Shown here one piece after another: positions 1-16,939 of a stretch of DNA of 23,992 nucleotides (positions within the stretch are counted from its first letter, which is position 1; each line of letters begins with the position of its first letter). The position numbers were made by a program, and so were the translations under genes. The notes beneath the pieces are model-generated. The model had not been told where the DNA came from, did not search any database, and saw only the letters and a list, made by a program, of their open reading frames with translations. This DNA is from a virus, in IMG/VR virus record IMGVR_UViG_3300035698_014035, positions 1-23,992 of that record; one strand, written 5' to 3'.

Positions 1-981
1 CTCTCCGACATCTCCCCGGAACTGAACATCTTCCACCTCCATACGCTCAATACAACGGACGGCCCTGCGCCTAGTCTCCTTCAGTGTCCGACCATGAGCG
101 CTGACATATCCCAGACACCCAGAGGTTCCAGCACAGAGATATTGAGCATCAACCTTCATCACATCCTCCATCCATATATACTTCCTACCCTCAGGAGTAT
201 TCCAAGATGACCCACCAAGAGGGAGGCCGAGGGCTTGTGAGGATACCTTTGTTGTCGGATACGGTGGGACTGATACCTGGATCGTAACTGCCCAGTCTTT
301 GTTCTTCTTAATCCTTGCTTTCTGCTGACTGAGCTTCAGGAAGAATTCCCCGAGAGGCTGCCTGAGCATCACCATCATACACTCACTGATTCCAGGGTAG
401 AAGTAACAGGAGAGTTTTCCTCCATGAACCACAACCGGTCCAACGTATTTGGCACTCCGCAGAGGCCACTCAATCGCTCGTGTAAGGCCGAGAGACCCGC
501 CCCCTACCTGTATAAGGGTCGCGCCAGACGAGGGCACGGTGGCCCCGATTTCGCCCGGCATTGTACGGGTGTGCAACCTTCCCTGGTAGAACTCCGGTAG
601 AAGTTTCTCTCCATCAAACCAACCACATCTCACAAACCCTTCCAGAGGATCTTTCTCATCCAGCTGACTAAGAGTCTGAGTTATGTGCCTGTACTCATCA
701 TTAACTTCTATCGCTTCCGAGAATGGTGAATCCCCAATCACTGGATACCCACGCTCTTGCAGATACATTACATGATCTCCGAACTGATATCCGAAGACCA
801 GGACATAATCTATCTTCTTATCAAGGATTGTCCGGAGAGACCCATGAGCCTTCTCTACCATTGCATTCCCTATCTTTGCATAAGGATCACTGAGTTTGAA
901 AACGACCTCATGACCTTCCTCTTGGAGCCGACATGCTACTCCAAGCCCCCGTCCTTTGGACGAGATGATTAGTATCCTCAC
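1..981 (-). CDS. PurD-like (phosphoribosylamine-glycine ligase-like) ATP-grasp protein, 3' end outside window
   Basis: The frame stays open for 327 codons from a GTG at 981 to the window edge. I chose the GTG because it overlaps the upstream stop (TAGTG at 983-979) and has AAGGAGG a few bases before it. The start RILIISSKGRGLGVACRLQ, followed by EEGHEVVFKL, looks like the first domain of PurD-like ligases, including phage versions. Residues about 120-128 (GWFDGEKLL) and 285-327 (GCLGYVSAHGRTLKETRRRA, then RGDVGE) resemble the family's later ATP-grasp and C-terminal parts. PurD joins phosphoribosylamine and glycine using ATP in purine synthesis. Here the stretch of about 80-90 residues expected between FSEAIEVNDEY (87-97) and GWFDGEKLL seems absent, and the usual E-x-N-x-R metal motif is replaced around E200. 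Catalysis is doubtful. Family assignment is from remembered motifs; role in the phage is unknown. Confidence 0.72.
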   Translation of the reverse strand, partial: MRILIISSKGRGLGVACRLQEEGHEVVFKLSDPYAKIGNAMVEKAHGSLRTILDKKIDYVLVFGYQFGDHVMYLQERGYPVIGDSPFSEAIEVNDEYRHITQTLSQLDEKDPLEGFVRCGWFDGEKLLPEFYQGRLHTRTMPGEIGATVPSSGATLIQVGGGSLGLTRAIEWPLRSAKYVGPVVVHGGKLSCYFYPGISECMMVMLRQPLGEFFLKLSQQKARIKKNKDWAVTIQVSVPPYPTTKVSSQALGLPLGGSSWNTPEGRKYIWMEDVMKVDAQYLCAGTSGCLGYVSAHGRTLKETRRRAVRCIERMEVEDVQFRGDVGE

Positions 982-3900
982 TAGAATCCCTCCTTTTTCC
1001 TCTTTCTCTCCCTGAGGTAGTTTGCTTTATCTCTTGCTTCTCCATCTTCCATTCTCTTCATTTCATTGGCTGTCTTCAAAGCGAGTCTCTTGAGATTGTC
1101 ATTAATTCGTTGATCTGATGGATGAATCTTACCACTCATGATTGAATAAGCATATGCCTGCATTTCTTTCTTGCCCTGACTGGCTACCCAATACTTCTTG
1201 TCAAAGTGATATGCATCTTCGTAGTAGGTGATAGTCATCAAAGCCAATCCACTCTCGAGCCAGTTTGCATCTCTCTCCAGGAACGTCCTCTTGGTCCAGT
1301 TGATCGGTGCGATGACTTCCCCTACTGTATAGACTAGGTAGTCAAGCATTATCTGTCCAGTCGTTCCACCCGAACTAAATTGTTTGCCTCGATAGTCTGT
1401 TCTTTTAGCCCAGTCTATGACCAAGTGAAATGGTACAGAAGAGTACCCATAATACCAAGACATGAAAACTCGCTTCAGATCTCCTGTTGCCAGAGGCTTC
1501 ATTCCACGTTCATACCAACGAACAGCCTCTCCAAGTGGTGTGAATGGAGTAATTACTGTCTGCTCAATAAAGCCCTTCACTTCATCAAACACAATCCTTG
1601 AGAGCTTGTATGCGTTCTGCCATTTGAATCCCATTGCATAGGCGAACACTCCCATCAGGCCTTTGAACAAGAGGTAGTTTAGAAGCTGCGGCCACCTGCG
1701 TAGAGGTTGTGTGACCATCAGGGCTTGATTCCTAATCACCTGAGTCCGATAGGTTGGGGTTAAGAAAAAGTATGACAAACTCTCGTTCAGGATCTTGGGC
1801 AGTCGTGCGTAATCTACATGCACATCTTTGATCAGCTGAAGAGCTCCTGTCTTCTTATTGTAATTCACTGGGCCGTGTAGACTCCAGCCATTACTTACCA
1901 GATAGTCCAGTCCTGCCAATCTCTGCTGTGCATCAATGGTCCATGTGAAGTGGCTGATTGCATTAAGCAATGGCATCATATTACCGTGGGCAAATTTCTT
2001 TTTGAAGATTGTATCTAGACTATCACCCATCCAATACTCAAGCTTCTGAGATGCTGCTACACGAGCTTTGCCGAATGGCTTATCAATCATCTTTGACTCG
2101 GCTCTGTGGATGGACATGATCATATCACGCAACTGGAAGTCATGTAACTTAAATGGGGCCGTCCCGATAACACCAGCTGCTAGTGCATCATAAAACAACT
2201 CCGTCTTCATTTCATAATGATAATATCCCTTCACCAGATACTTGGTGTACGTAGTAGGATTCATCAGCAGCTCTTGGCCTTTGAGCATTGCCGCCGGTCC
2301 ACCATAGTACCATGCCTGCGCAAGATTGTTCCCAGCCATGATCTGAGGCAGGAAGAATTTCACACGTTTCGTGAAGTTGAGAGCTTGTCTAAATGATATC
2401 CAACCTGGACGACCAATTGCAGATTGAGGTCCGACCTGATGCACCAAATCTCCAAGAGAGGGCATGTTCATTTGACGATAAGCTGCAGCAAAAGCAGGAT
2501 GAATAAAGAAGTTTTTCTGCTCAAGATTCTTCTCACCATTCAGTTCCCAAACATTAGGTATCGGAATCCAAGGAACTCCCTCACCCTCTTGCCGAAGTTT
2601 ATTTAACTCAGCCTTAGCCTTCTTCCAATCTCTCTTGAATGCTAACTTCTCCATGGGATCAGTAGCATCTTCCATGTCCGCTCTTAGCTCATTGATATTT
2701 CCCTCAAGCTCTTCTAGAAGTTTGTTGGGTGTGTGCTGCTCCTGTCTACAAACAGTAGCTTGTGTCTTCAGATCTTCCCAGAACAGGTGCTCTTGTGCAG
2801 CAGTCATGACTCCGACTCTATGGTATGCAGCAAGGACTTCGATATGAAGTTCTGGTTTGTAGCGTTTCCGTCTGCAGAATGTCTTCCAATCTTCAACAGA
2901 GTAGTACGACTTCTCTTTCATGAAACTCTTGAAGTCAGAGATAAGAGATCCACGATTTGAGTACTTGTAATTCTTATCAAATGTTCCTTGGATGATCATA
3001 GCAGGGAAGTACTCGAACTGTTCCAATGCAATGAGTTTCATCTGCAGACCATCAATCTCCTGTGCTCCTTTACGATACTCTTCGACTGTGTTATACCGTC
3101 CCCACTTCCCTTCCTTCTTGGGGCCTAGTGTTCCATCTTCCTGCACCACCCATCCGAGTTCAGATTGGAGTTCACTGATTCGATTAGACATTTTCAGTTT
3201 AGCACTTGCTGGCCACAAAGGCATCCCGAGAGAGTTCGCCAGCTCAGCATCTGCATCAAACCACTGGTCAAAGATCGCCATGAACTTCTTCTCATTCTCT
3301 GTCTCTGCCACCATCTTTCCCTCACCTTCTACATTACGCATTGACATTATATGTGTAAGTTTGATAGCAAGTTCAGGAGTTAGTCCATACAGCATCCCTC
3401 CCTTCCTTCTATGTGCGCGGATGGCAGTGATGACCTTCTCAGTATTCACAGCCTTAGCTTGTCCGACAGCCAGGAGCTTAACAGCAATATCTGTGCCTTT
3501 GGCTATGTCCAGATCTTCAAGAGCTCCAAACCTATTAAACCATCTTGCGAGAGTTGAGGCAGACTTACGTGCCATGAAGGCAGTTGCTCCACCAGCTTTG
3601 AATGCCAGATCAAACATGGCAGGGATGGGCAGGTTCGAATACAGAATTGTGTCACCACCATTCTCCATCTCCGCAAGATATGGAAACAAATCAATGAATG
3701 CTTTAGGGTCAGCGAGGAGACCAAAGGTTGTTGGAGAGGCAGATTGTTCAGTCACCCATTGTTCCAATGCCTTCTCTGTCTGAGACATTGATCTCCAGGC
3801 CTCATGGATTCTATTATACCTGGCTCGTTGGGACTCAGTGTCAAACACCGGCTTTGGATTAGATATAAAATCCTCGACCTTTATATTCGGATCAAGATAC

Positions 3901-6900
3901 ATATCCCAGAGTTGCTTCCCTGACATCTTACCAAAGTTTCGTTGGGCAGTTCCTGATGAGAGTTCTACTTCATATTCCAAATCCTTAAACCAAAGAACTG
4001 TATTCCCTTCTGTATCACGAAAGACCTGACTCCGACCCTCTGGTATTACGTAGGATTCTGTCTGACGAAGAATTGACTCAGCCTCTTTTAGTTGCTGCTT
4101 CTTCCTAGCAAGATTCCGTTGGTCATCTGAGATAGCCATCTGAACATCATCTATCTGCTCAGCGAGTGATTCATCTTTAACATCTGCCTGCTCACTTTCT
4201 TCCTGCTGGGCAAGGTTTCTGAACTCGTCTTGAAGAGATGCAATGTTTGTTTCAAGAGCAAGGACTTCCATTCGCAAGGCCTGCACATCAGCCACCGGAG
4301 TTTTCCCAGTGACTGTCTTTTTGTTTGCACGTTTTGCCTGATACTTATAGAAGGGGTTCTTGCCGATCATTGTGACATTCAAGTTATCTCCAGAGGTAAG
4401 TTCCTGGAGCATTCTCTGCACTGTCTTGTGGACTTTGTGAGGATCAAGCCATCTCCTGTGTTGTCGTTTTTGTGACTTCTTGTATTCGAGTAATCTTTCT
4501 TTTTGTGCTTCTTCTTTCTGAACTAATTCTTGGACAATACCACCTGTGGCATCAGCAGTATTCAATAACTTATCTACTTGAGGGCCAGTGAGTCTTGCAT
4601 TTGGCTTTTGTGTTTTTAATAATTTGATTCGATTATCAAGTTGCTTGACTTCGCCACTAAGTTGTTTCATTCTCTTGGCATAAAGAGTTTTTGTGTAGTC
4701 TACTTCTTGACCACCATCTACTGTCTTACCACGAAGTGCATCAGCAACTCTTTGTGGATTGGCTATCGACCTGCGAAGGTTTATCCCATCAGAAATTCCC
4801 ATATCCAGAAGTGCCTGTTTGATCTCCCTATCTGTAGGTTGCCTGACTTCTTTCAGGTTCTTCTCAAAGTATTCAATAATCTGCTTAGCATTTACTGAAC
4901 TCTTACTCTTCTTGACGAACTCCAAAATCCCACTTCGCTGTGCCTCGTATCGGCTCACTGCTGCATCAACCTCAGCCTGAGCTGCCTTAGCTGTCATCTC
5001 ACCTGTTGCCATCGGGAAGTGTAGGAAACTCTGACGGATGATATTCTCGTGTGCGATATCTCTACGCTCGTCAGTCTCATCCAGGTCCAACGTCTCAATG
5101 GCACGATCAATCTGTTCCATCTCTCTCATGACGAAGGACTTACGCAGGAGTTCCTGCTGGGCTATATGGAATGCAGGTCCCATCTTAGCAACCTCAGCCG
5201 CTCCATCCCAGAGTTTGTCAGACAGGAAGTTAAATGCATCTATGTTCTGGATAGCAAGGGTGTCGAACTCAAGGAACTCATCTATAAGGAACCTGTTGAA
5301 ATTCTCTTGGTGAAGTTTAATCCCTGAATCAATCCATTCTTGAAGCTTTGCCAGATACTCATCACGAGGGATCATATCGAGAACGTCCTGAGCTTCTTTG
5401 AGTTTGTGGGTTAGGGACTCTGCGTGTTCGGAGAATTCATGGCCAATGTCTTGAATAGAGGGAGGAGCTCCTTCTCTCTCTTCCTCTTCTATCTCACGAT
5501 CAATTTCTGCCTCTTCTTCCGCTGTCAACTCCCGATTCCGAACAGGGATCTTCACCTTCTCGGCCTTCTCGAGTTCATCCTGTATCTCACCAAGGGTCTT
5601 GCCAGCATTCTCTTCCTTGACCTTTTTCGCTTCTGCAGCATTCTTCTCTGCCAGCTCGTCCATCCAGGTAGACAACTCTGCAATGTCTTCATCTGACATA
5701 GCCTCATCATCATACTCTTCTCCCTTCTCAACACGCATCTGCTTCAGGATCTCCAGTGCTTCAGCTGCACGTTCTTGAGTCAAGTCCTCTACACGAACAG
5801 GCTCTCTGGAGGTTTTGTTCTTTGGTTTTGCCTTCCCTTCAGCCTTCTGTTTCTTCCGCTTCCTCTTCTTGAGTTCTTCCAACTTCTCGAGTGCTTTCTC
5901 TGCCTGAGCTTCTGTGATTACTGGGTCGGGTTCTGCAGGAGCTTCTTCAACAGGAGGAGTTGCTTCTTCTGCCGCCGCTTCCTTCTTGGCCGCCTTCTTC
6001 TGTGCACGTTTCTTCTTCGGAAGCTTCCCTTCCTTCTCCAACTCTTTCTTCCGAGCCTCCTTCGATGCAAGTTCTTCTTTTGACTCGCCAGTATATGTTT
6101 CCGTCCCTGTGATCGTCACCTTCTCCTGATCACTCTTGCTGACATACCCACTTTCCCTCTTATATGATTCCCAGTATGCATCAGCTGCGGCTCCAGCCTC
6201 ATCCCCATAGTTCTTCGTATCCTTACGGATCGCACCCTCACGTTTGCGAGCATCTGCCGGACTCTTCTTCTTCCCATCAGCCAATCCCCAACCACCAGCA
6301 GCATCGACAATATTCGATGTCGGACCAAAGGGTTGTTTCTTCCTACCCATCTTCTGAGCCTTCTTCCTGGTCTTCCTTCCCTCCAATGCCTGTTGCTTTG
6401 CCTTCTCCATTTCATCCATAACCCCCACAAACAAAGATACATCACCTGATAACTCGGCATGAATAGGACGTAGATTCCTAAAGGAAATCTGTGTAGTAAC
6501 ACCATCTGCATACTGAATAGTCACATACTCATTTCCGTCAATACTGACGATGGATACAACCTCTCCCAACCGCTTCGTATGGAGCTGTCCTTCCTTCACA
6601 ACATAAGGAGTCTGACGACTGATAACATCCGAAGCATATACTTTTGGATCATGAAAGAGATTGGCAACTTGTTGCTGTAACTTCGCTGGGTTCTTGGCGA
6701 GGAATTTGAACTCTTTATCTGTCTTAGCTTTGGTATCAGCATCCCACCACTGCATAAACTCTTTCAGGAGAGCTTCTCGCCCCAACTTATTTGCTTTCTT
6801 CACACCAATCTGTGTACCAACAACCTTACGAAGTTCTTCTATCGTCATCTCATCAGAATTCAACTTCGCCATCTCGCGAGCTTTGGCATTGCGCATATTG

Positions 6901-8462
6901 ACAGTATGAAGCATAGTCTTCATAGCCACTGTTGCTTGGATATGTGATTGACGCTCGACTTCTTTTCCAGGCATCTTCGGATCAAACTTCCGGAGGCTCT
7001 TAGCCGCCTCATCTTGAATACTAAAGAAGAGGGAAGTTCCTCCTCCAAATACAAGAGATGGAAGGATCGCACCTAGCATATTGTCCCGGATGGTCGGCCA
7101 GATTTCTTCCAACTTCTCCATCTGGACTGTAGGATCTGCAGAGAAATATCTATCCTTCTGGTAGGTTAGAGCAGCATCTATAATCTGGACACCGGCTTGG
7201 AGTCCTTCAGTGGTTGACTCAACAAAGACCTGCTTCAGGCGATTGAGAATTGGACGTCCAGCTTTCCTTCCGAAGAACGTACCAAGACTTAAGGATTCAA
7301 GTGCTCCTATCAAAGCAACTTCAACTGCAAAGTTAGTCCATGCAAGATTTTTTGCTTCTGACTTGCCTTTACCTTGACGCTGATAATCATCCACAGCCTT
7401 TCGATACACAGGAGAGGCTTCAACAATCGCCAAACCATAACCACCTATAACAGCAGCCGCTTTTGTGCTGCCAGTGATGCCATATCCCACACCCCCCATG
7501 GCGTATGCATGTGCAAGTGAAGCCATACCGGATGCCGAAATCTGTGCAAGGTTGTAGTACCAGGGAGCATCTGGTTGATTATGCCCTGTCATTCCACGCT
7601 GAATTTTCTTATGCCAGTCTGATGCTTTCCATAACCATTGAGCGGCAGCTTTTGCCCAGGCTGGTTGTTCCTTATCAGACATTGCAATATCCCATGTCCC
7701 ACCAACACCAAAAGAATGCTCATTGCGTGAATGCTCAAGATTATCTTTGTTTGGAGCCAATAGCCCTCGAGGATTGTATGCTACAGCACCTCGTTTAGTA
7801 GTCATCTCAACATTCTGTGCAATATCTCGAAAGTGATCCTGTCCCATCTCAGCTACATAATTTGGATCAGTCCAAGCATCAATAGTATTCCCTGCACCCT
7901 CAAGGAGTCCAGCCTGTAATCCATAGAAGAACTGTGCTCCGAAACTACGGAACATGGTATTGATAGTTCCCTGAGCAGAGTAATCATCATTGACATATTT
8001 GGAACCAGCGCGTTCTCCATTTGGACCCACTGGCAGGGGTGGAGGTCCTTGCATATTATAAGTATCCTGAAGAGACCCTGCTTCCTTCTGACTTGCTACT
8101 GCCAGAGCAAAGTCCATCCCCTCTTCTACAGTCCCCACAGCCTCCTTCTTCATGACATCACGATATGTTGCATCAAGAAGATTCTTTGTCCCAAACTCTT
8201 GAGGATCATACATGAGGTCATCAGCAGGAGGCGCAGCGAGATCTACATTGTACTTACTAGGGTCAAATGGTTTTGACTCATACCCAGGCTCTTCTAGACG
8301 CATATCTATATCCACATCCAGACTTGGTATAGATGCTTCTTCCGCAGTAGGGATTAGTGACGAAGGAGTTTTTGTAATGACTTCATCTACTGACTCAATC
8401 TGCTCCTCCGAAAGGTCTAATCCAGTAGCTAAACTTGGCATGTTATTTTCTTTGTCTGTCAT
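981..8462 (-). CDS. Giant 2493-residue protein, probable internal virion / DNA-ejection protein
   Basis: This gene takes up nearly a third of the window. Its start has GGAGG about 6 bases upstream and overlaps the preceding gene by 20 bases. Visible segments: a disordered acidic N-terminus (1-110); a helical, Gly/Ala-rich hydrophobic region (about 310-480) containing VESTTEGLQAGVQ; an SH3/KOW-like beta stretch (about 627-667); Lys/Glu/Ala-rich low-complexity sequence (about 780-1000); long charged coiled coil (about 1000-1500); and an aromatic-rich C-terminal third (about 1560-2490) with hydrophobic patches such as LLFKGLMGVFAYAMGF near 2270. The C-terminal third resembles domains found in giant phage 'polyvalent' proteins. 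I see no lytic transglycosylase or protease motif. Being the third and largest gene after the nozzle, it sits where T7 has gp16, which forms part of the DNA-ejection channel. A tape-measure-like or DarB-like role is the alternative. Confidence 0.7.
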   Translation of the reverse strand: MTDKENNMPSLATGLDLSEEQIESVDEVITKTPSSLIPTAEEASIPSLDVDIDMRLEEPGYESKPFDPSKYNVDLAAPPADDLMYDPQEFGTKNLLDATYRDVMKKEAVGTVEEGMDFALAVASQKEAGSLQDTYNMQGPPPLPVGPNGERAGSKYVNDDYSAQGTINTMFRSFGAQFFYGLQAGLLEGAGNTIDAWTDPNYVAEMGQDHFRDIAQNVEMTTKRGAVAYNPRGLLAPNKDNLEHSRNEHSFGVGGTWDIAMSDKEQPAWAKAAAQWLWKASDWHKKIQRGMTGHNQPDAPWYYNLAQISASGMASLAHAYAMGGVGYGITGSTKAAAVIGGYGLAIVEASPVYRKAVDDYQRQGKGKSEAKNLAWTNFAVEVALIGALESLSLGTFFGRKAGRPILNRLKQVFVESTTEGLQAGVQIIDAALTYQKDRYFSADPTVQMEKLEEIWPTIRDNMLGAILPSLVFGGGTSLFFSIQDEAAKSLRKFDPKMPGKEVERQSHIQATVAMKTMLHTVNMRNAKAREMAKLNSDEMTIEELRKVVGTQIGVKKANKLGREALLKEFMQWWDADTKAKTDKEFKFLAKNPAKLQQQVANLFHDPKVYASDVISRQTPYVVKEGQLHTKRLGEVVSIVSIDGNEYVTIQYADGVTTQISFRNLRPIHAELSGDVSLFVGVMDEMEKAKQQALEGRKTRKKAQKMGRKKQPFGPTSNIVDAAGGWGLADGKKKSPADARKREGAIRKDTKNYGDEAGAAADAYWESYKRESGYVSKSDQEKVTITGTETYTGESKEELASKEARKKELEKEGKLPKKKRAQKKAAKKEAAAEEATPPVEEAPAEPDPVITEAQAEKALEKLEELKKRKRKKQKAEGKAKPKNKTSREPVRVEDLTQERAAEALEILKQMRVEKGEEYDDEAMSDEDIAELSTWMDELAEKNAAEAKKVKEENAGKTLGEIQDELEKAEKVKIPVRNRELTAEEEAEIDREIEEEEREGAPPSIQDIGHEFSEHAESLTHKLKEAQDVLDMIPRDEYLAKLQEWIDSGIKLHQENFNRFLIDEFLEFDTLAIQNIDAFNFLSDKLWDGAAEVAKMGPAFHIAQQELLRKSFVMREMEQIDRAIETLDLDETDERRDIAHENIIRQSFLHFPMATGEMTAKAAQAEVDAAVSRYEAQRSGILEFVKKSKSSVNAKQIIEYFEKNLKEVRQPTDREIKQALLDMGISDGINLRRSIANPQRVADALRGKTVDGGQEVDYTKTLYAKRMKQLSGEVKQLDNRIKLLKTQKPNARLTGPQVDKLLNTADATGGIVQELVQKEEAQKERLLEYKKSQKRQHRRWLDPHKVHKTVQRMLQELTSGDNLNVTMIGKNPFYKYQAKRANKKTVTGKTPVADVQALRMEVLALETNIASLQDEFRNLAQQEESEQADVKDESLAEQIDDVQMAISDDQRNLARKKQQLKEAESILRQTESYVIPEGRSQVFRDTEGNTVLWFKDLEYEVELSSGTAQRNFGKMSGKQLWDMYLDPNIKVEDFISNPKPVFDTESQRARYNRIHEAWRSMSQTEKALEQWVTEQSASPTTFGLLADPKAFIDLFPYLAEMENGGDTILYSNLPIPAMFDLAFKAGGATAFMARKSASTLARWFNRFGALEDLDIAKGTDIAVKLLAVGQAKAVNTEKVITAIRAHRRKGGMLYGLTPELAIKLTHIMSMRNVEGEGKMVAETENEKKFMAIFDQWFDADAELANSLGMPLWPASAKLKMSNRISELQSELGWVVQEDGTLGPKKEGKWGRYNTVEEYRKGAQEIDGLQMKLIALEQFEYFPAMIIQGTFDKNYKYSNRGSLISDFKSFMKEKSYYSVEDWKTFCRRKRYKPELHIEVLAAYHRVGVMTAAQEHLFWEDLKTQATVCRQEQHTPNKLLEELEGNINELRADMEDATDPMEKLAFKRDWKKAKAELNKLRQEGEGVPWIPIPNVWELNGEKNLEQKNFFIHPAFAAAYRQMNMPSLGDLVHQVGPQSAIGRPGWISFRQALNFTKRVKFFLPQIMAGNNLAQAWYYGGPAAMLKGQELLMNPTTYTKYLVKGYYHYEMKTELFYDALAAGVIGTAPFKLHDFQLRDMIMSIHRAESKMIDKPFGKARVAASQKLEYWMGDSLDTIFKKKFAHGNMMPLLNAISHFTWTIDAQQRLAGLDYLVSNGWSLHGPVNYNKKTGALQLIKDVHVDYARLPKILNESLSYFFLTPTYRTQVIRNQALMVTQPLRRWPQLLNYLLFKGLMGVFAYAMGFKWQNAYKLSRIVFDEVKGFIEQTVITPFTPLGEAVRWYERGMKPLATGDLKRVFMSWYYGYSSVPFHLVIDWAKRTDYRGKQFSSGGTTGQIMLDYLVYTVGEVIAPINWTKRTFLERDANWLESGLALMTITYYEDAYHFDKKYWVASQGKKEMQAYAYSIMSGKIHPSDQRINDNLKRLALKTANEMKRMEDGEARDKANYLRERKRKKEGF

Positions 8463-9894
8463 ACTTCCTCCATCCGTCTTGATCGTCTAAGATATCCCAT
8501 CTTCCTTTGGATACTTTTTTGAAATACCTGCCTTCGGAATCTTTACCTACCTCAGCCTTTCTTGCCGTAAAAATAGAATCTGCATCAATCTCCTTTCCAT
8601 CAACAATCTTCCCCGATAGTCTATTCATCTCGAGGGACCGACTATTGATCTGCCGTTGCTTCTTATCAGACAAGTCTTTGGATATTGCTTGTGTTGCAGT
8701 ACGTTGTGCCTCAGCTTCTTTCGTAGCTGCTTTCTTAGCTGTTGCAGCAATATCAGGATACTTCTTATCTATCTTATCAAATGCTTCCTCAATCTTTTTC
8801 TTGATTGGTGCGATATCTTTCTTCTTATTGAATGCTTCCTGAATTGCTATATCATCTTTATCAGCATTCTCATCAAGCTTCTTGAAATCCTGAACAAGTC
8901 CACCAGAAACTCGATTGTAAAGTTCTTGTGGAGTTAGGCCTTGTGATATAAGTGCATGAACATATCTTTCACCCACAGGTGAGTCTATGTCAAAGTTCTT
9001 CGCAAGTTCTTCTAAGATTGCAGGAGACATATTCACGCCACCCCACATTGAGCTTCCAGTACTTCTCCCCTTCTGCATGTTCGCAAGATAGACATTATAG
9101 AGATCTTCAACATCAGCATCACCTTCATCAACAGCCTTGTAATAATCATCTGATGCTTTCTGTGCCATCTTAGCATCCTGTTCGTCTTTCTCTTCCTGAC
9201 TCTTTGCTACCTGATCTCCAAGTTCTGTGATGCGATCTCTCTCCCAGATGGCATCTTCTCGATCATTCTTCTGCTGACGTTTAGACCTTGCACCACCTAC
9301 TGACTCATCAAAGACTTGTCCAGCATTACCTTGTCGCTGACCACCACCTTGTCCTCCACCCATCCCAAACCTCTGCATTTGCTTCTGTGCATCAGGAGCT
9401 TCTCTACGACCACTATCTCTTGGAATCAATGAATCCATCATAGTTCCCCGTGTGTCACCGCCTTCCTTCGCAGCTTCTTTCTCCTGCTTATCTGCCCGCT
9501 GCAGGGCTTTCATAGCCATCTGCCCAGATTTAATCATGGGCCCTCTAATGATTCCTGGGGCTATACCAGATTCAATAAGTTGAGGAAGTGCTTTGATTAG
9601 AGAATCGTATGAAGAGAGTGCCATCTGATCTTGCTTCTGCTCAAAAGTCTTGAGGAACTGCTCTCCCTGTTGTTTGAGCCTAGCTCCCTGAAGGTTGTCC
9701 TGATGCATCTGTTTCCCTACATCACTCGCCCCTCTGCCAATCCCTGCCAGTGCCTCCTCCCAGGGTTTCATACTACTCTTTCTCTGGATCACTCTTCCCT
9801 GTTGCCCAGGACGAGGATTGGGTCTCTTGACCCTCATCGCCTCAGCGTAGTTGATTGGAGCACCTGCTCCCGGAAATTTTAGTTCTTGTGCCAT
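8443..9894 (-). CDS. Charged helical protein, 483 residues, probable internal virion protein
   Basis: I do not recognise a family by sequence. The start follows AAAGGAGAATAGACA, a good SD. The N-terminal 50 residues are basic and proline-rich (RVKRPNPRPGQQGRVIQRK). A helical part follows to about 165, then a Gly/Gln-rich spacer (about 176-192, GMGGGQGGGQRQGNAGQ). The remainder is long, highly charged, predicted helical sequence rich in Lys, Glu, Asp and Ala, ending in a basic tail (GWRKYDRQRK). There is no membrane segment or signal peptide. It lies between the 353-residue gene and the giant gene, the place held by gp15 in T7-type genomes, and its last 20 bases overlap the giant gene, which suggests coupled translation. 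An ejection-complex role is inferred from position and composition only. Confidence 0.72.
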   Translation of the reverse strand: MAQELKFPGAGAPINYAEAMRVKRPNPRPGQQGRVIQRKSSMKPWEEALAGIGRGASDVGKQMHQDNLQGARLKQQGEQFLKTFEQKQDQMALSSYDSLIKALPQLIESGIAPGIIRGPMIKSGQMAMKALQRADKQEKEAAKEGGDTRGTMMDSLIPRDSGRREAPDAQKQMQRFGMGGGQGGGQRQGNAGQVFDESVGGARSKRQQKNDREDAIWERDRITELGDQVAKSQEEKDEQDAKMAQKASDDYYKAVDEGDADVEDLYNVYLANMQKGRSTGSSMWGGVNMSPAILEELAKNFDIDSPVGERYVHALISQGLTPQELYNRVSGGLVQDFKKLDENADKDDIAIQEAFNKKKDIAPIKKKIEEAFDKIDKKYPDIAATAKKAATKEAEAQRTATQAISKDLSDKKQRQINSRSLEMNRLSGKIVDGKEIDADSIFTARKAEVGKDSEGRYFKKVSKGRWDILDDQDGWRKYDRQRK

Positions 9895-9913
9895 TGTCTA
9901 TTCTCCTTTATCC

Positions 9914-10975
9914 TTAAAATCCTAATGGGTTATTTGGACTGTTGATAAGTGATGACCCTAACCCAAACGCCCCCTGTGCTATTGCTCCCCAAGGACTCTG
10001 GTCATCTGATTCTGCTACTGCAGTATACATTGGCTGACCACAGACAGCAAGAAGAAATTCTATGGCTGGGTTCATTAGATAGTGATTTCGCATTTCATTC
10101 TGAAAATCTACCATATCAGATTGCCCAGTAACTCCACGCTGAAGTTCCCCTGACTGCATTCCAGCCATTGCTCGTTTGAGGTAGTTGTTCAGTGGTTGTT
10201 CTATGAAGTAAGTATATCCTTGAACAGCAGTCAAACGACGATTGATTGCCTCATTTTGATATTTAAGTAGACGCTCGAGAAATGATTCTCTAGCAGCTGA
10301 TATACGATCAACATTCTTATCACGAAATGTGGAATTAGTCTTATCTCGATCAGCAGTCAGTTGCAACTTCCTATCAAGTTGCTTATCTTTCATCTGACCA
10401 ACAAGTTGCTGAAAGGAGAATGCCGTCTCCCCTCTCTTGGCAAGAATTTCGAGGGTCAACTTCCTTCGTGCTTCAGCAACTGCTCTCTCACACCTACCAG
10501 ACCAGCGAGGATTAGACCCAGCAAATGCTTCTCGAATCTGAGGCACTGTGGTATTGTCGAAATAGTCCCATGCAGGATCTTCAACCCATTCATCAAAGTA
10601 TGTCTGATCCCAATCAGCAGCCTCAAGTGCCACAAGGTCTAGATCAGTACCTTGTCCATCCATAGTTGTTCGATCATTACCATATGGATTTAGATTGGCT
10701 AGTCCATCAGGAACTTGGTTTACTGCAGATGCTCTGAGTGTAGCAATAGCAAGTTCATATAAGTCTTGATTTTCGGGATTATGTGATGTAACCGAAGCAT
10801 CACCTCCAGCATAAGCAAGTACCATATCCCAGGCTGCTTTTTGCCCTGTGGCAAGAACTGGATTCTCAGCTGATGGCATACTACATCCGAGCTTACCCTG
10901 CAACTTTCCCAACAAATCATTAATTGCAGCTTCTTGTCCAGTCGATACTGTTAAAATCCTTTCTACGTCACCCAT
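9914..10975 (-). CDS. Helical virion protein, 353 residues, probable internal virion protein
   Basis: The start lies one base after the nozzle gene's stop, and GGAGAGA serves as SD. The protein is mostly helical: an Ala-rich N-terminal third, an Arg/Lys/Glu-rich centre (about 165-260, with KQLDRKLQLTADRDKTNSTF) suited to coiled coil, and a small, mildly hydrophobic Gly/Ala/Ser tail (AIAQGAFGLGSSLINSPNN). That tail resembles the ends of small internal virion proteins in other podovirus-like phages. It is the first gene after the tail nozzle and precedes two larger helical proteins, like gp14 before gp15 and gp16 in T7. No enzyme motif is visible. It could instead be a tail-associated structural protein. 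Confidence 0.7.
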   Translation of the reverse strand: MGDVERILTVSTGQEAAINDLLGKLQGKLGCSMPSAENPVLATGQKAAWDMVLAYAGGDASVTSHNPENQDLYELAIATLRASAVNQVPDGLANLNPYGNDRTTMDGQGTDLDLVALEAADWDQTYFDEWVEDPAWDYFDNTTVPQIREAFAGSNPRWSGRCERAVAEARRKLTLEILAKRGETAFSFQQLVGQMKDKQLDRKLQLTADRDKTNSTFRDKNVDRISAARESFLERLLKYQNEAINRRLTAVQGYTYFIEQPLNNYLKRAMAGMQSGELQRGVTGQSDMVDFQNEMRNHYLMNPAIEFLLAVCGQPMYTAVAESDDQSPWGAIAQGAFGLGSSLINSPNNPLGF

Positions 10976-10976
10976 T

Positions 10977-12662
10977 TTATCTCTCCGTGCTAGGGATCAT
11001 CCCCCTAAGTATTTGTTTGATTGTCATGTATGATGGCTTGACTGTTCCATCAGTATAGTTTGTGCACAAGACCTTGATCCGGAAATACTCACATGAAGTA
11101 TTCGGCCAGATTGTGAAGAGTTTCCACGTAGTTTCTAGGTCAAATACCTTTGCTGTACTCCAGTCTCCTCCATCATAGGCTACCTGAACTCTCAATTGTC
11201 CCAACCCTTTGGCCTCAACACGGACAAACTGTAAACGTCCTTTCTTTGAATAGGATTCATTTGCATCAAAAAACACGAACTCCTTGGATTCAAGCATCGA
11301 AGTTATATATGTACTTCTATCATATCCAGTATTGACTTCGTCCTTCAGGACATATCCATCATTTGTTCCATACAGAACCGAGTCCATTGTAACACCTGCT
11401 TGGAACGAATGCTTTCTGACAGATTGAGTTATTCCACAGAGAATTGAATCAGGCTCGGTTAGGAGCGTCCAAGTGTTCTCCACATAGTTATAAGAAACAA
11501 CAGTATTTGGTTCAGAAGCATCCCATGTCATATCAGATGTTGGATAGTCTACCCAATTCCCTGCTTGTGTATCCCATGTAGCTGATGGGTCATGATCCAT
11601 TGCTACATGAAAGTTCACGCAGAAATCCCTAGGTCTGTCGTAGCCAAAGATCCGATATCTATTTGTCCCAGTCACTCCATGGTCTACCATGTATTGGAAG
11701 ATAGCATCATGTGAGATATCTTGGTACAATGAATCTGCTTTGTGGATGTAAATCCCTCTCTGGCCAAAGACCATATGTGCGCGACCTTGAGGAGTCAGGA
11801 ACGGAACTACTGATCTAGGTGAACACGCACCCTCTTCTCCCAATATAGTCTGGAAGGAGAAGATCTCTTGTCCACCAACCCACCTCATGATATGCACTCC
11901 CCATTCCTGGTAGATGATTATCACATCTCCCTGAGGTGTTTGAAGAGGCTCTGCAGCAATGATAGCTCCATAACCTTTTGTTACTGAGTTCGGTGCTGAT
12001 AGATCTACGAAGTCTGCAGTAGTGCCTTCTTCGTCAAAGTTCGTAGGATCTCCAAAGTCTCCCCAACGGACACGGTCGAGGGAAGGGACTCCATTCTCAG
12101 TCGTGCCGAAGAATACAATATGTCCTGCCAGTGTCCGAACAACTCTCGCCCGCATCCAGTGTTTATTCGTCCCAAGAGTCAGTTGTGGGAAAAGGCCAGA
12201 TGAGACATCCTCAAGATATCGAACAGGTGCTCTCTGATCGAATGACACTACATAGATTTCACTTCCTGTTTTGCCTTTGATTGCAGCAGTTGTTATATGT
12301 GTATCATGTCCTAATTGCTGGGCTGTATGCTCAACTATCTTCTGCCAGATCCCGTCTCTGTCCTTATAGTAGATGCTGTTATTTGTAACCGCGACAGGTG
12401 ATGGTGTGTCCATATCCCTAAGTCGGATATTGTCTAAGTGAATAGTTGCCTCCCCAGAAGCTACCTGGAGACCAAAGGCCTGTCGACCAGGACGAGTAGT
12501 CAGTACCCCTTGCCAGGGACGTAGATTTTGTAAAGCATAAGTCTGATTATCTTTCAGATCCCTCGGGCCACCCTCCGGACGAAACAATCCGCCAGCAACA
12601 GTAGGGATACCTAAAGGTTGAGTGATGGTGGTTGGATTGGTTATAGAGTTGTTGGTTGGCAT
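10977..12662 (-). CDS. Tail nozzle / tail tube protein (T7 gp12-like, P22 gp10-like role)
   Basis: The protein has 561 residues. It is rich in beta strands and aromatic residues and has no signal peptide, which suits the propeller-like nozzle that closes the tail of short-tailed phages. Diagnostic stretches are RVRWGDFGDPTNF (about 203), EWGVHIMRWVGGQEIFSFQT (about 252-271) and GACSPRSVVPF just after. These match a pattern I know from nozzle or 'stabilisation' proteins of environmental podovirus-like phages. It follows the adaptor gene, as gp12 follows gp11 in T7. An AAAAGGT SD lies 8 bases before the ATG. The 74-base gap upstream holds no clear hairpin or promoter. The tail-tube role is well supported by context; the exact family is less sure. 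Confidence 0.75.
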   Translation of the reverse strand: MPTNNSITNPTTITQPLGIPTVAGGLFRPEGGPRDLKDNQTYALQNLRPWQGVLTTRPGRQAFGLQVASGEATIHLDNIRLRDMDTPSPVAVTNNSIYYKDRDGIWQKIVEHTAQQLGHDTHITTAAIKGKTGSEIYVVSFDQRAPVRYLEDVSSGLFPQLTLGTNKHWMRARVVRTLAGHIVFFGTTENGVPSLDRVRWGDFGDPTNFDEEGTTADFVDLSAPNSVTKGYGAIIAAEPLQTPQGDVIIIYQEWGVHIMRWVGGQEIFSFQTILGEEGACSPRSVVPFLTPQGRAHMVFGQRGIYIHKADSLYQDISHDAIFQYMVDHGVTGTNRYRIFGYDRPRDFCVNFHVAMDHDPSATWDTQAGNWVDYPTSDMTWDASEPNTVVSYNYVENTWTLLTEPDSILCGITQSVRKHSFQAGVTMDSVLYGTNDGYVLKDEVNTGYDRSTYITSMLESKEFVFFDANESYSKKGRLQFVRVEAKGLGQLRVQVAYDGGDWSTAKVFDLETTWKLFTIWPNTSCEYFRIKVLCTNYTDGTVKPSYMTIKQILRGMIPSTER

Positions 12663-12736
12663 GATCGAGACCTTTTAGGTGGATTATTGTTTAGATGTAG
12701 GTGGCAAAATTGGTTGGTGGTTTTTTGAATCGTTGG

Positions 12737-13498
12737 CTAGCGCATGACGAAAGGATCTCTCCAGGATTCAGTTATTGGACCACGTCCGAGGTCAGGGACG
12801 GAAGAGAGTCCAAGCCAAGCCATGTCCCAGTCTGGAGATGTGACCTCGAGTTTTACTGCTTCTTGGAGTGCTGGCATGTATTTGTTTTGATACCAGAAGA
12901 CTGATTGCGGGTATTCTCCAAGAGCTGAATAGAGCATGGAGGTTCCGAGGTTCAGGATAATGTCGTCGATCTGTGTGATCTCTGGGGTTTCAGTTGCTGC
13001 ATAGGTACTCGGCCATTTGGAGTAACGGATGGATATGTCGTAGGCGTCATCCGGTATCGGGTCGAAGATCAGACATTTAGTGTTGGTGCCCTCGATGACG
13101 ATATTGTCTTCAGAGTAGTGTGTTGGGATGCCCTCAGCGTAATTAGTCGCGTCTGGTATCCACTTGTCTGTCTGTCGAATGTCGTTTACTCGGATGAGCT
13201 TCCTACTGGAACCGGATTCAATTATCCGGATGGAGACGATGGTGCGAAGAGGTTGCAGGCCTGAGATGTCGACATACCGAACACCATCAGCTGTGTCATA
13301 TGTAGTCGTGTCGAGGATTCGCAGTTCCTTCCAAGCCCAGTTGCGTGCTATTCTCATGATCGCACGGTTGATAATTCCAGGGTTATTGGATGCCAGAGTT
13401 GCGTCTGGAAGGCAACGGGTCTGTAGGTCAGTGTCCAGGTTACTCCCTGCCCTTCCTATATTGGATAAGACTTCTGTTGCAAAGTCGGATATTCTCAT
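12737..13498 (-). CDS. Head-tail adaptor (connector) protein
   Basis: The product has 253 residues. Its N-terminal half has the helical layout of podovirus adaptors: MRISDFATEVLSNIGR, then NNPGIINRAIMRIARNWAWK, where an Asn-containing turn precedes a helix that packs against the portal. The middle is beta-rich (LRTIVSIRII, TKCLIFDPIPDDAYDISIRY), and a helix near the end (QNKYMPALQEAVKLEV) resembles the end of the SU10/T7 gp11-type adaptor family. It lies directly upstream of the nozzle gene. No strong SD precedes the ATG (only TGGGAAAC), unlike nearly every neighbour, so it may be translated less or depend on the upstream hairpin region. Confidence 0.7.
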   Translation of the reverse strand: MRISDFATEVLSNIGRAGSNLDTDLQTRCLPDATLASNNPGIINRAIMRIARNWAWKELRILDTTTYDTADGVRYVDISGLQPLRTIVSIRIIESGSSRKLIRVNDIRQTDKWIPDATNYAEGIPTHYSEDNIVIEGTNTKCLIFDPIPDDAYDISIRYSKWPSTYAATETPEITQIDDIILNLGTSMLYSALGEYPQSVFWYQNKYMPALQEAVKLEVTSPDWDMAWLGLSSVPDLGRGPITESWRDPFVMR

Positions 13499-13579
13499 TA
13501 GATTAGTTTCCCATTAGGTGTTCAATAGTTGAACGGCTGGTCAGAAAGAGGGGCTTGCACCCCCCTCCCCAACCGCTTC
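13499..13579 (-). terminator. Spacer with nested GC-rich hairpin, possible weak terminator or mRNA-stabilising element
   Basis: This 81-base gap between the small virion gene and the adaptor gene folds well. In transcript sense, CGGTTGG (13575-13569) can pair with CCAGCCG (13540-13534), enclosing an inner stem GAGGGG (13567-13562) with CCCCTC (13553-13548). The inner stem is followed only by TTTCTG, a poor U-tract. Immediately downstream, GTTCAA-CTA-TTGAAC (13534-13520) forms a second small hairpin that abuts the outer stem. It may partly end transcription after the capsid genes or protect their mRNA. Stems are seen directly; function is inferred. Confidence 0.45.
13520..13534 (-). repeat. 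Perfect 6-bp inverted repeat GTTCAA-CTA-TTGAAC
   Basis: A 15-base inverted repeat with a three-base loop lies just downstream of the GC-rich hairpin and 22 bases before the adaptor start. It could be a small mRNA hairpin or a protein-binding half-site pair. Such a short palindrome may also occur by chance. Confidence 0.35.
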
Positions 13580-13909
13580 TTAGATCGTGCCGATAGCGAT
13601 GAAGTTAACTTCACCAATATCAGTATCATTTGCTTCTTCTTGAAAAGCAGTTCCTGCTCCACCATCGCTCTCAGAGAATGCATGAAAGCATTTATCAGTG
13701 GTATCCCACCGCACTCCAAAGAGGTTGTCAGAAAAGCCATCACAGATGACCCGTTTCAGGGATTTGAATTTTCCAGTAATGTCAGTGTTCTCAGCACCAG
13801 TGGTGTTGTAGTTTGTGACATCACACTTACCAACGATCATCCCAAGTTCTCTTGAGATCCTTTCAGCCTTCGGTAAGTCAAAGGTTGTAGTTTGTGCGTA
13901 ATCAGCCAT
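13580..13909 (-). CDS. Small virion-associated protein, 109 residues, function unknown
   Basis: The ATG is preceded by AAGGAGG at a 7-base spacing, and that SD lies inside a hairpin (see the 13917-13931 entry). The protein starts MADYAQTTTFDLPKAERISR, then turns beta-rich: ITGKFKSLKRVICDGFSDNL and a Gly/Asp/Glu-rich end (EVNFIAIGTI). There is no membrane segment. It stands alone between two hairpin-bearing spacers, directly after the putative decoration gene. Small beta-rich proteins here in uncultured phage genomes are usually head-decoration or head-completion proteins, but I do not recognise this one. Confidence 0.65.
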   Translation of the reverse strand: MADYAQTTTFDLPKAERISRELGMIVGKCDVTNYNTTGAENTDITGKFKSLKRVICDGFSDNLFGVRWDTTDKCFHAFSESDGGAGTAFQEEANDTDIGEVNFIAIGTI

Positions 13910-13991
13910 TATCTTTCCTCCTTAAAGGAGGCGGTGATGGGGGTGCCGAACTTCACCGTTTACCCCCACACCACCATTGTTATTGTTTAGA
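13910..13991 (-). promoter_or_regulatory. Spacer with an 11-bp GC-rich hairpin upstream of the 109-residue gene
   Basis: In this 82-base gap, transcript GGTGTGGGGGT (13972-13962) can pair with ACCCCCATCACC (13944-13933), leaving one bulged base and a 17-base loop. No U-tract follows, so simple termination is unlikely; mRNA stabilisation or RNase processing fits better. The smaller SD-occluding palindrome follows directly. Confidence 0.45.
13917..13931 (-). promoter_or_regulatory. SD-occluding palindrome CCTCCTTTAAGGAGG before the 109-residue gene
   Basis: Transcript CCTCCT can pair with AGGAGG across a three-base loop, burying the SD of the gene starting at 13909. CCTCCT also copies the 3' end of 16S rRNA, so the mRNA carries its own anti-SD. 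The palindrome is exact; the effect on translation is inferred. Confidence 0.5.
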
Positions 13992-14762
13992 TCACGGACT
14001 GATCTGTAAGAAGAACATCGCGTACTGTGCATCCACGTAATCAGTTTCATCCGTGTACACGAAGCCAAGGTGTGGCTTGTGTGCAGCACCACCAGCATCC
14101 GGCTTCATAATTGCACCGGCAACATTGGTGGAAACGATACCATAACGCTCACCCACAAGGGCTCCGAAGGTTCCGGTTGCATCTATCAAGACACAACAAG
14201 GCCCCCACGTCTGGATCCAACCATAGTACTCATCGGTGATATCCACAATAGGAACACCAGCAACCATTTCCTTCCCACCAGTATTAGCCTCTTGAACCCG
14301 ATAAGGACTCTGGTACATAGTGATATCAGTATTAGCAATCACCCAGGCAGTACGCAGGGGGTCAAGCAACTTGATAACACCTTCTGCTGAATTCGCAATA
14401 GCCGGATGTTCTTTAATACGCATAACATCACCAGCACCAGTGCCTTCATCCACAACCAGATACCCATCCGTAAACATGTTTGCGGTAATATCCCGAGTAC
14501 CTTCCTCAGTGATAGTTACATCAAACGTGCCGATTGGATGAGCCACTGTAACAGTGTTCTCAGCATTGATGAAGTTCAGCGAGGTTGCGAGCTTGCTCTT
14601 ACTCAAACCCTCACTTGCCCAGGCGTATCTGAACACTCTTTCTCCGACACACAGACGAGTCCCAAGACGGGCCTGCTTGGTTTCGGAAATCTCATACAGA
14701 CCCTGCGGTGGAATACTTACCGCCGGAACCTGGTCATAACTGCCTTCTACAAAATTACTCAT
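13992..14762 (-). CDS. Probable capsid decoration / minor head protein
   Basis: The product has 256 residues and is beta-rich. Two stretches stand out: ARLGTRLCVGERVFRYAWAS (31-50) and YYGWIQTWGPCCVLIDA (179-195), with DGYLVVDEGTGAGDVMRIKE (99-118) between. I recall this LGTR..FRYA / Y..WIQTWGP arrangement from proteins encoded next to the capsid gene in many uncultured aquatic phages, where they are taken as decoration or second structural head proteins. The gene lies directly downstream of the major capsid gene, across a hairpin-bearing spacer. Its SD (GGAGG, 6 bases before ATG) overlaps a small stem-loop. Virion location is likely; the decoration role is inferred. Confidence 0.62.
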   Translation of the reverse strand: MSNFVEGSYDQVPAVSIPPQGLYEISETKQARLGTRLCVGERVFRYAWASEGLSKSKLATSLNFINAENTVTVAHPIGTFDVTITEEGTRDITANMFTDGYLVVDEGTGAGDVMRIKEHPAIANSAEGVIKLLDPLRTAWVIANTDITMYQSPYRVQEANTGGKEMVAGVPIVDITDEYYGWIQTWGPCCVLIDATGTFGALVGERYGIVSTNVAGAIMKPDAGGAAHKPHLGFVYTDETDYVDAQYAMFFLQISP

Positions 14763-14832
14763 AATAAACCTCCATTGGTTTATAGGCTACCTCAAGGGGA
14801 GGGTTTGCGGCCACTCCCCGGAGGGCAGTTGT
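14763..14832 (-). promoter_or_regulatory. Spacer with GC-rich hairpin between capsid and decoration genes, plus SD stem-loop
   Basis: After the capsid stop, transcript GGGGAG (14819-14814, read from CTCCCC on +) pairs with CTCCCC (14801-14796), extended by CCTC/GAGG (14824-14821 with 14793-14790) across small bulges. No U-tract follows, which argues for a processing or stability element. Closer to the next gene, TAAACC-AATGGA-GGTTTA (14782-14765) is an exact 6-bp stem whose loop and 3' arm contain the SD of the decoration gene. Confidence 0.45.
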
Positions 14833-15813
14833 TTAGGATATCGACACGACCTGACGGCCTTGCTTCTTCCTGTTGGTTATTTCGAAGTTGCCAACCCAGA
14901 CGATCTGGGCAGCTCGGTCGAAAGGCTGTGTGGGTATGTTTTTCCACGCAGTCATTTCGAAGTTATAAGCAGGGTCAAAGACCAAGCCCATGTACTTCGG
15001 GTTGATGCAATATACGGTGTTTGCCGTACAGTTTGTGCACCAGGTAAGGATTCCACCCTTGAACTTCAGGGCATCAGTCAGACCAAGGTCAACATTGTTC
15101 CTGTCAGAGAACATGTAATACTCCAGTCCTTCATCCTCATATGCTTCCAGAACCGCCTGAGTTGTCAGGTAGATCTTCGGGTAATCCTGTCCACCATTGG
15201 AACAGTCATTCCGCATATTGCGCAGATCAGAGACTCCATAAATATCGAAGTCGCCAGTCGCAGCCTGATACTGATTTCTCCACCAATGATAAAGTGCTCC
15301 AGTGAATCCACCAACAGAGGTCGTACTCGTACTCGGGTTCGCCTCAATTAACTTCGGAAGACCATCGATAGCCAGTCCGCCATCACCAGTTCCGTCACCC
15401 CAAAGGGCAGCGTCTGCATACTCAGTCATGGACATTCCAAGAGTCTCAACCTTTTCTTTTGCCAGGTCAATTTCCTTAGCACTGCCAGAGTTCTGCTGCT
15501 CATCGGTGAAGTACCGCACGATTGAACCTGACATATACTTCCAATTGAAGTAAGCCACGGTCAAGTTCTGAGTATCAGTCAGGGGCATTACTGCTCCGCG
15601 ACCGATAAACCGCACAGTCTCATTCTTCGCATAACGAAGAGTTGCTTCAATAAAGCGTCCGCCACGCTGAGCGCGAGAAGCCTTATGCTGTTTTACTAGC
15701 AGGTTCCAGCCTGCAGTCTGTCCGAATATATTATCCGTAATACCTTTCTTTCTCACCTGCCAAGTTGCGGCATAAAAGGCATCCATCTCTACTGTTTTTT
15801 CGGGAAGTCCCAT
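14833..15813 (-). CDS. Major capsid protein
   Basis: The product has 326 residues, with AAGGAGTAG as SD. Near the N-terminus it shows GITDNIFGQ (24-32), a basic stretch, then GGRFIEATLRYAKNETVRFI (51-70) and GRGAVMPLTD. This matches the pattern TDNIF ... GG..I..PL.YAKN.T....G of a HK97-fold capsid family common in phages. Later parts (MTEYADAALWGDGTGDGGLA; DYPKIYLTTQAVLEAYEDEG) fit the spine helix and A-domain of that fold. It follows the scaffold gene by 14 bases and precedes the decoration gene, the expected place. It should be the most abundant virion protein. No fused protease is seen. Confidence 0.85.
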   Translation of the reverse strand: MGLPEKTVEMDAFYAATWQVRKKGITDNIFGQTAGWNLLVKQHKASRAQRGGRFIEATLRYAKNETVRFIGRGAVMPLTDTQNLTVAYFNWKYMSGSIVRYFTDEQQNSGSAKEIDLAKEKVETLGMSMTEYADAALWGDGTGDGGLAIDGLPKLIEANPSTSTTSVGGFTGALYHWWRNQYQAATGDFDIYGVSDLRNMRNDCSNGGQDYPKIYLTTQAVLEAYEDEGLEYYMFSDRNNVDLGLTDALKFKGGILTWCTNCTANTVYCINPKYMGLVFDPAYNFEMTAWKNIPTQPFDRAAQIVWVGNFEITNRKKQGRQVVSIS

Positions 15814-15827
15814 TGAATCTCTACTCC

Positions 15828-16493
15828 TTAAGAAGGCTGTGTTACAAGCTTCTTATAAGCAGCGGATATCTGATCATCCTCCGATAGGTCTTTGTGTTCT
15901 TCCAAGTTAAAGGAAGATCCTGTTCCGGGTGGTTGAGTTTGTAGGGATGCACGAAGTGCTTCTTGTTCCTTATCACGTGCAGCCTTTTCAGCTTCAGTAA
16001 CAGCTTCATCGTTCCCAAACTTTGCAAGACGATAAGCATCCTCAGGAGAGAGATTCGAGTTCTTTGCCCAAATCTCACGCATCTTCGGCATGTAATGGTC
16101 AAAATCTCCATGCCTTCCTCTCACATCCCCAAGGGACTGACCTGCTCTCACAACATTAAGGTCCTTCTGCAGCCCACCTAATTTATCATCAACTAGTGCT
16201 GCAACCTTTGATATGATCTGCTCTGCCATTCCCACATTATCCAGCTCATTAAGATCAAGTACTGGTTCTGTGGCGACTGGAGCAGCAGGTCCTCTCATGG
16301 ATTGTAAGAACTCCGGTGAGAAGAATTTGCTCTGAGCCTGTGCCTGTGCCTGCTGTTGCTTTGCTAAACTCCCAACCAACCCAGTCAGTTCAGTTACCTT
16401 GTTCGTCAAAGTATCAATCGCTGCTGAATTATTGTCACCCGGGACTTTGCTCTCAGGTTCTGGTAATGGATTTCCGTTGGCATCCAGTTTCAT
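15828..16493 (-). CDS. Capsid scaffolding protein
   Basis: The 221-residue protein is acidic, helical and low in aromatic residues. A disordered start (MKLDANGNPLPEPESKVPGD) leads to a coiled coil with a Gln/Ala run (about 44-56, KQQQAQAQAQ), a second helical part with DFDHYMPKMREIWAKN and LSPEDAYRLAKFGNDEAVTE, and a Lys-containing C-terminal helix (SAAYKKLVTQPS) of the sort that touches the capsid. Composition, size and place immediately before the major capsid gene are those of scaffolds, which guide procapsid assembly and then leave. Its ATG overlaps the previous stop (TAATG at 16493). No protease signature is visible. Confidence 0.8.
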   Translation of the reverse strand: MKLDANGNPLPEPESKVPGDNNSAAIDTLTNKVTELTGLVGSLAKQQQAQAQAQSKFFSPEFLQSMRGPAAPVATEPVLDLNELDNVGMAEQIISKVAALVDDKLGGLQKDLNVVRAGQSLGDVRGRHGDFDHYMPKMREIWAKNSNLSPEDAYRLAKFGNDEAVTEAEKAARDKEQEALRASLQTQPPGTGSSFNLEEHKDLSEDDQISAAYKKLVTQPS

Positions 16494-16939
16494 TATACTG
16501 TTTCTCCTTCTTTGGTTAGACTATGAGGTTGCATGCTCGCAGCATCAATCTCGTGGATTGGAGCAATTACTGGTACTGATAATCCGTCGGCCAAGGGCAT
16601 AGATGGCTGAGCAATGCGCTGAGCCTTCAATACCCCAGTTCCAGGATTTGTTCCCAAGTTCTCTCCAGGACGATCTTGTGGAATCTGCTCGGTCTTGACA
16701 GGCTTACGACTCCGTAGTGTAGACTTGTCAATAGCTTTACGCCGTGACCTCACCAATCCTCTCTTAAGACCCTTTGCGATCTTCTGTATTAAATGAGCAT
16801 TCCAATGCCCAGTAAAATCATATTGCCACTGACCCTTCGTCTTATCGAATGTGATGACTATCTTCCTGGGTTCTTTTCCAAGAACTCGATGAGTCTTTGG
16901 GCGATTCGGACTTATTGTTACTTTCCTTTCCTCACTCAC
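16493..16939 (-). CDS. Basic 148-residue protein in the head module, function unknown
   Basis: The start overlaps the zinc-ribbon gene's stop by four bases (ATGA). The first half looks folded: RKIVITFDKTKGQWQYDFTG followed by HWNAHLIQKIAKGLKRGLVRS, a strand-strand-helix layout with a very basic helix (LKRGLVRSRRKAIDKSTLRS) that could touch DNA or the connector. The second half is proline-rich and probably disordered. A pattern of 'I.ITFD..G.W...FTG.W....I' followed by a basic helix is familiar from unnamed proteins between portal and scaffold in uncultured phages, but I know no assigned function. Head-completion or assembly factor is a guess. Confidence 0.65.
   Translation of the reverse strand: MSEERKVTISPNRPKTHRVLGKEPRKIVITFDKTKGQWQYDFTGHWNAHLIQKIAKGLKRGLVRSRRKAIDKSTLRSRKPVKTEQIPQDRPGENLGTNPGTGVLKAQRIAQPSMPLADGLSVPVIAPIHEIDAASMQPHSLTKEGETV

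Follow-up and report, generated by a model that had tools for sequence, protein, structure and literature searches.

Results

A PurD-like gene at the end of a late virion operon

The DNA that we analyzed (the window) is a complete IMG/VR virus record of 23,992 bases (IMGVR_UViG_3300035698_014035; G000 in our numbering), and its first 981 positions (1..981) are occupied by a PurD-like gene on the minus strand. The frame begins with GTG at position 981 and runs to base 1, the end of the contig, with no stop codon; 327 codons are readable, and approximately 15–20 C-terminal residues have been lost to the contig end. A strong ribosome-binding site, the Shine-Dalgarno sequence AAGGAGG (989..995, minus strand; read directly from the sequence), is located seven bases 5′ of the GTG, and the GTG shares one base with the stop codon of the preceding gene (TAGTG), so the clean frame noted in the original prediction is borne out.

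The preceding gene (981..8462, minus strand) encodes a giant late virion-type protein of 2493 residues that has no match in Pfam or PHROG. Upstream of it is a late virion operon (8443..19033, minus strand) that includes, among others, genes for an SU10-type portal (19033-17333), the major capsid protein (15813-14833), an SU10-type adaptor (13498-12737), and a virion protein (12662-10977), all on the minus strand. The PurD-like gene closes the late operon of the window, as had been proposed. At the far end (23143-23991, minus strand), a late protein whose sequence carries long Thr/Pro repeats (TPTPSVTPTPTVTPT) is open at the contig start.

Domain organization and similarity to PurD

The AlphaFold model of the window protein is confident (pLDDT 91.0, pTM 0.91), and its 15 best Foldseek matches in the PDB are all PurD (E=3.9e-18, TM 0.71); the model of a full-length viral relative (L164; pLDDT 91.9) also matches PurD (TM up to 0.79). 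The order of the N, A, and C domains is that of PurD/GAR synthetase (TIGR00877; PDB 2yw2, 5vev, and 1gso); however, the window protein is without the ATP-grasp B subdomain, its active-site and metal residues are replaced, and its gene is located in a virion operon.

Using the alignment of the viral PurD-like family (vide infra) and the model, we assign residues 1-100 (682..981, minus strand) to an N-terminal pre-ATP-grasp (Rossmann-like) domain, with predicted strands at residues 2-7, 25-30, and 59-63; this agrees with the N-terminal domain (residues 1-97) recognized earlier. A short helix and linker (residues 95-115; 637..699, minus strand) take the place of the B subdomain, with the modeled helix (residues 95-108) connecting the N domain with the sheet of the A domain, which is entered at residue 116. 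The residual A subdomain (residues 116-225; 307..636, minus strand) extends from GWFDGEKLL onward. The C-terminal GARS_C-like domain (residues 226-327; 1..306, minus strand), the end of which is off the contig, contains a conserved Arg-rich helix (LKETRRRAVRCIE, residues 300-312; 46..84, minus strand) that recurs in L126, a protein recovered independently of this motif, and is absent from the more distant viral relatives.

Sequence profiles detect the similarity to PurD at low scores. TIGR00877 gives 23.9 bits with the protein (E=1.6e-5 over residues 201-326) and 19.4 bits in a genome search, against a cut-off of 288 that is passed by 13 of 14 control genomes; GARS_C (PF02843) gives 19.2 bits (E=0.0016; cut-off 34.8 bits) and is found at E≤0.01 in 28 of the 29 rows of the family alignment, the window among them. 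Queries with the window protein gave no match in a PHROGs profile search or a single-protein scan of IMG/VR and no close match in a BFVD structure search; PADLOC also gave no match.

A virus-specific PurD-like family

We used tblastn with E. coli PurD as the query (a sequence with a 93% match to Salmonella PurD) and located a full-length PurD-like gene in the environmental phage MW202796, where it closes the late genes. This gene (MW202796.1:42140-43471; L003:20001-21332) encodes 443 residues and is unannotated in GenBank. ORM_20, the top phage match in tblastn, resembles UDP-galactopyranose mutase and was dropped. Scans of IMG/VR seeded by the MW202796 gene yielded 13 and later at least 305 relatives, and a scan with a C-terminal motif added further members, both full-length and lid-less. 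Two pattern scans of a collection of species genomes identified no family member, the 34 matches in the second being due to chance; also, MW202803 and MW202489, which encode relatives of the window capsid and portal, have no annotated PurD-like gene. The family is virus-specific and frequent in IMG/VR contigs, yet it has no PHROG match.

The family profile and the window protein align colinearly (hhalign E=4.5e-6), and the window protein matches full-length L095, which an earlier motif scan had found, with a phmmer E-value of 5.4e-26. It has late-operon places in common with the full-length family, in which its nearest relatives are the L095/L164 class; the full-length proteins keep the lid and the catalytic residues (12/12), which are lost in the window. 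The profile of the full-length family matches PurD in the PDB with E=9.7e-49; however, as far as seen, the full-length viral proteins are below the purD equivalog cut-off (best E 8.7e-37), and alignment with PurD shows that three elements are missing from them (GGREHA in the N domain, the glycine-rich loop for ATP, and GDPE in the C-terminal signature), so their substrate may differ from that of PurD.

Two genomic layouts are found: the PurD-like gene is located either in the interval between the large terminase and the portal or as the final gene of the late operon, where it follows a giant gene (roughly 930-2493 residues across records). The second, that of the window, also occurs in G021, G035, G025, G032, L015, L028, L143, and L144; of these, the lid-less G021 and G035 also carry relatives of the window virion genes W561 or W353. 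In full-length relatives with this layout the PurD-like gene likewise closes the late genes and is followed by genes on the opposite strand, and the surroundings are late/virion wherever neighbors could be named. Genes of about 930-1566 residues occupy the place of the 2493-residue gene in related viruses. In the interval between the PurD-like gene and the portal we observe a protein, designated X (L126:12017-13840, L129:8647-9198, and L207:8658-10043), of approximately 180-600 residues with a related C-terminus; X is a candidate partner of the PurD-like protein. Beyond the capsid genes in L126 and L129 (L126:4697-6336 and L129:1628-3295; syntenic G001 and G002), a glycosyltransferase-like gene is followed by a radical-SAM-like gene with a CxxCxxxC-type cysteine cluster, both genes being named by eye.

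Loss of the lid and of the active site

In the window protein 22 residues separate DEY (97) from GWF (120); between fixed alignment columns it keeps 17 residues, compared with 81-83 in 12 full-length viral relatives. The missing stretch is the ATP-grasp lid (B subdomain), and the original count of about 22 residues is confirmed. No other part of the contig encodes the lid: a lid profile found no match in the whole window, which rules out a split or rearranged lid and removes the possibility, raised with the prediction, that the A subdomain is complete in another arrangement.

Six positions (K138, E204, K206, N256, E268, and R272) carry the same residue in each of the 12 full-length proteins of the clade, E268 being the metal-binding Glu of LEFTxRxG in L164. 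All six aligned columns are altered in the window, including the five that fall in the residual A subdomain (E204, K206, N256, E268, and R272). In the ten lid-less proteins described below, K138, E204, K206, and N256 are kept in none according to the alignment, and E268 and R272 are each kept in one. The full-length viral relatives carry E-F-T-x-R at the metal site; in the window the motif has degenerated to KLSCYFYPG (residues 189-197; 391..417, minus strand), with K, S, Y, and Y in the columns of E268, T270, R272, and G274. The metal motif is indeed broken, as had been suggested, but not at E200; the lost Glu aligns to about K189-Y195 instead. The substrate loop reads GATVPSSGA in the window vs GPNTGCMGN, although two of its glycines persist in the lid-less proteins (G214 in 10/10 and G221 in 9/10). 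The loss of residues far from the deletion argues for a genuine loss of catalysis and against an assembly gap; judged from the alignment and the model, this loss is near certain, and the window protein is almost surely a pseudoenzyme.

Recurrence and independent origins of the lid-less form

The lid-less form is present in at least ten viruses, none of them cultured (the window, G002, G021, G024, G030, G033, G035, G036, G037, and G038), the nine others being IMG/VR phages; the ten proteins keep 16-24 residues between the fixed columns, compared with 81-83 in the full-length proteins. The G035 member was first met as a fragment and later read whole. The motif scan that brought L095 also brought the second lid-less protein, L103; the two are from syntenic viruses with the same gene order (small terminase, large terminase, PurD-like gene, X, portal), and L095 has 417 residues with an intact ATP-grasp whereas L103 has 343 and no lid. 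In an eleventh case, L149 (G023), most of the lid region is retained, whereas E268 and the segment with E204 and K206 are gone (L149:6541-7731; G023:28362-29486), a loss of catalysis through a different lesion. No second PurD-like copy occurs in any of 45 virus records, so, to the extent of these records, a pair of catalytic protein and pseudoenzyme within one virus is ruled out.

In a tree built on the columns outside the deletion, lid-less L147 pairs with full-length L151 (support 97/93), lid-less L167 pairs with full-length L164 (99/93), and four lid-less rows form one group (97/96). The best tree has six changes, and the well-supported branches alone force three. Constraining the lid-less rows to a single clade is rejected (p-AU 3.5e-5; 1e-47 with an earlier tree); because long branches would draw the lid-less rows together, this test should err conservatively. 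The window has the longest branch (2.07), too long to be placed. From these sequence comparisons, the lid appears to have been lost at least three times, perhaps six.

Conservation, selection, and alternative explanations

The share of the conserved columns of the full-length proteins that the lid-less proteins keep differs by domain (N, 0.52; A, 0.42; C, 0.80). Retention of the C-terminal search motif is partly built in for the eight of ten lid-less rows that came through the motif scan, the window and L126 being independent of it; removing the columns imposed by the motif gives 0.75 for the C domain, and the window and L126 alone give 0.69. A DNA element behind the conserved C-terminus was considered and ruled out, synonymous sites there being unconstrained in the lid-less sisters L163 and L150.

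These values bear on the possibility that the protein is a ligand sponge or sensor, the cleft between the N and A domains binding a non-ATP substrate and sequestering or sensing a host metabolite. Both domains are kept and are folded in the model, and the substrate loop retains G214 and G221; however, the remaining loop positions vary, conservation is lowest in the A domain (0.42) and highest in the C domain (0.75), and the operon contains virion genes, not early takeover genes, so we regard this explanation as unlikely. We give still less weight to a regulatory role, in which the protein would be a pseudo-subunit paired with PurD of the host, or with another of its ATP-grasp enzymes, and would alter the activity of that enzyme: the fold is PurD-like and pseudoenzymes often regulate active paralogues, but no active paralogue accompanies the gene in the 45 virus records, PurD is largely monomeric, and late expression would seem a poor moment to change nucleotide supply.

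A pseudogene that is decaying with its frame not yet lost would account for the longer branches of the lid-less proteins (L147, 1.17, vs L151, 0.24; L167, 0.51, vs L164, 0.19). However, the closest lid-less pair, L163 and L150, has dN 0.108 and dS 1.63, that is, dN/dS 0.066; although dS approaches saturation, the ratio is still far under 1, and it is even across all four quarters of the gene. The estimate is from this one sister pair, no close enough relative of the window gene having been found; it indicates that these two lid-less genes encode maintained proteins and are not debris. Decay, which we consider very improbable, is also at odds with ten clean frames of comparable length, the strong Shine-Dalgarno sequence ahead of the window gene, the confident predicted fold, and the retained C-domain residues; we are confident that the lid-less protein is maintained. 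The original view of a stable non-catalytic derivative, not a broken gene, is therefore supported by the nine other lid-less homologues and their several origins, by the dN/dS of the sister pair, by the loss of the active site, and by the PurD-like fold.

A working auxiliary gene for purine synthesis (GAR synthetase), which the distant similarity to PurD and the published reports of viral purD as an auxiliary metabolic gene (PMC11360552, PMC11097641, PMC12043954) might suggest, has next to no probability given the missing lid, the missing catalytic and metal residues, and 19-24 bits against a 288-bit cut-off. Equally negligible, even with the gene at the contig end, is an assembly or sequencing deletion, a concern raised at the outset, since nine other, unrelated contigs have the same loss (16-24 residues remaining) and residues far from the deletion are lost in matching fashion.

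Discussion

The reading that we favor, and consider fairly probable, is that the window encodes a non-catalytic, late-expressed protein with the PurD fold that works via the conserved C-terminal domain and probably serves virion assembly; the assembly role taken by itself is a more tentative inference. A role outside purine synthesis, as originally proposed, is strongly suggested.

The protein descends from a virus-specific PurD-like (GAR-synthetase-fold) ATP-grasp family encoded in the late virion operon. Loss of the B subdomain removed the lid, which carries the ATP-binding lysine and one half of the adenine pocket; because the remaining half has in turn lost its catalytic and metal residues, ATP-driven joining of substrates is no longer expected. 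The remainder is predicted to fold as the N domain, a short helix, the A-domain sheet, and the C-terminal domain. We infer that the full-length ancestors already had a non-catalytic job, carried out mainly via the C-terminal domain beside any ligase activity; most likely this would have been a docking function in assembly, with late or virion components (the portal, the giant virion protein, or the terminase) as partners. The chemistry would then have become dispensable and the lid been excised repeatedly, the putative docking role of the C domain being what the lid-less proteins retain.

A second function that outweighs the chemistry is implied by orthologues that share an operon position, lose precisely the ATP-binding subdomain time and again, and yet, in one pair, are under purifying selection. 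Extended to the family, the proposal is a conjecture that we hold more loosely: the virus-specific "PurD" family may consist primarily of late virion-module proteins, not of purine auxiliary genes, with the C-terminal domain providing a second, non-catalytic function; the ATP-grasp chemistry would be dispensable and the lid would have been excised at least three (perhaps six) times, with a structural or assembly protein as what is left.

In the open-access papers that we searched, we found no report of a viral ATP-grasp protein without its lid, and TTLL12 was the subject of the sole paper found on an ATP-grasp pseudoenzyme. As in the window protein, the fold of TTLL12 is kept and catalysis is apparently lost; however, TTLL12 is a eukaryotic member of the TTL family without reported repeated excision of the lid.

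Virus-encoded purD and GART genes in ocean, snow, and vent surveys are read as auxiliary metabolic genes for purine synthesis (PMC11360552, PMC11097641, PMC12043954). Judging from the annotation names, these genes probably overlap with the full-length family described here; the relevant passages of the surveys present them as purine-synthesis genes, with no description of lid-less forms. Such ecological surveys count viral purD among the genes of purine metabolism, and the lid-less forms caution against inferring metabolism in viruses from annotation at the level of the fold. The full-length/lid-less sisters (L164/L167 and L151/L147) provide a natural separation-of-function series for finding the second function.
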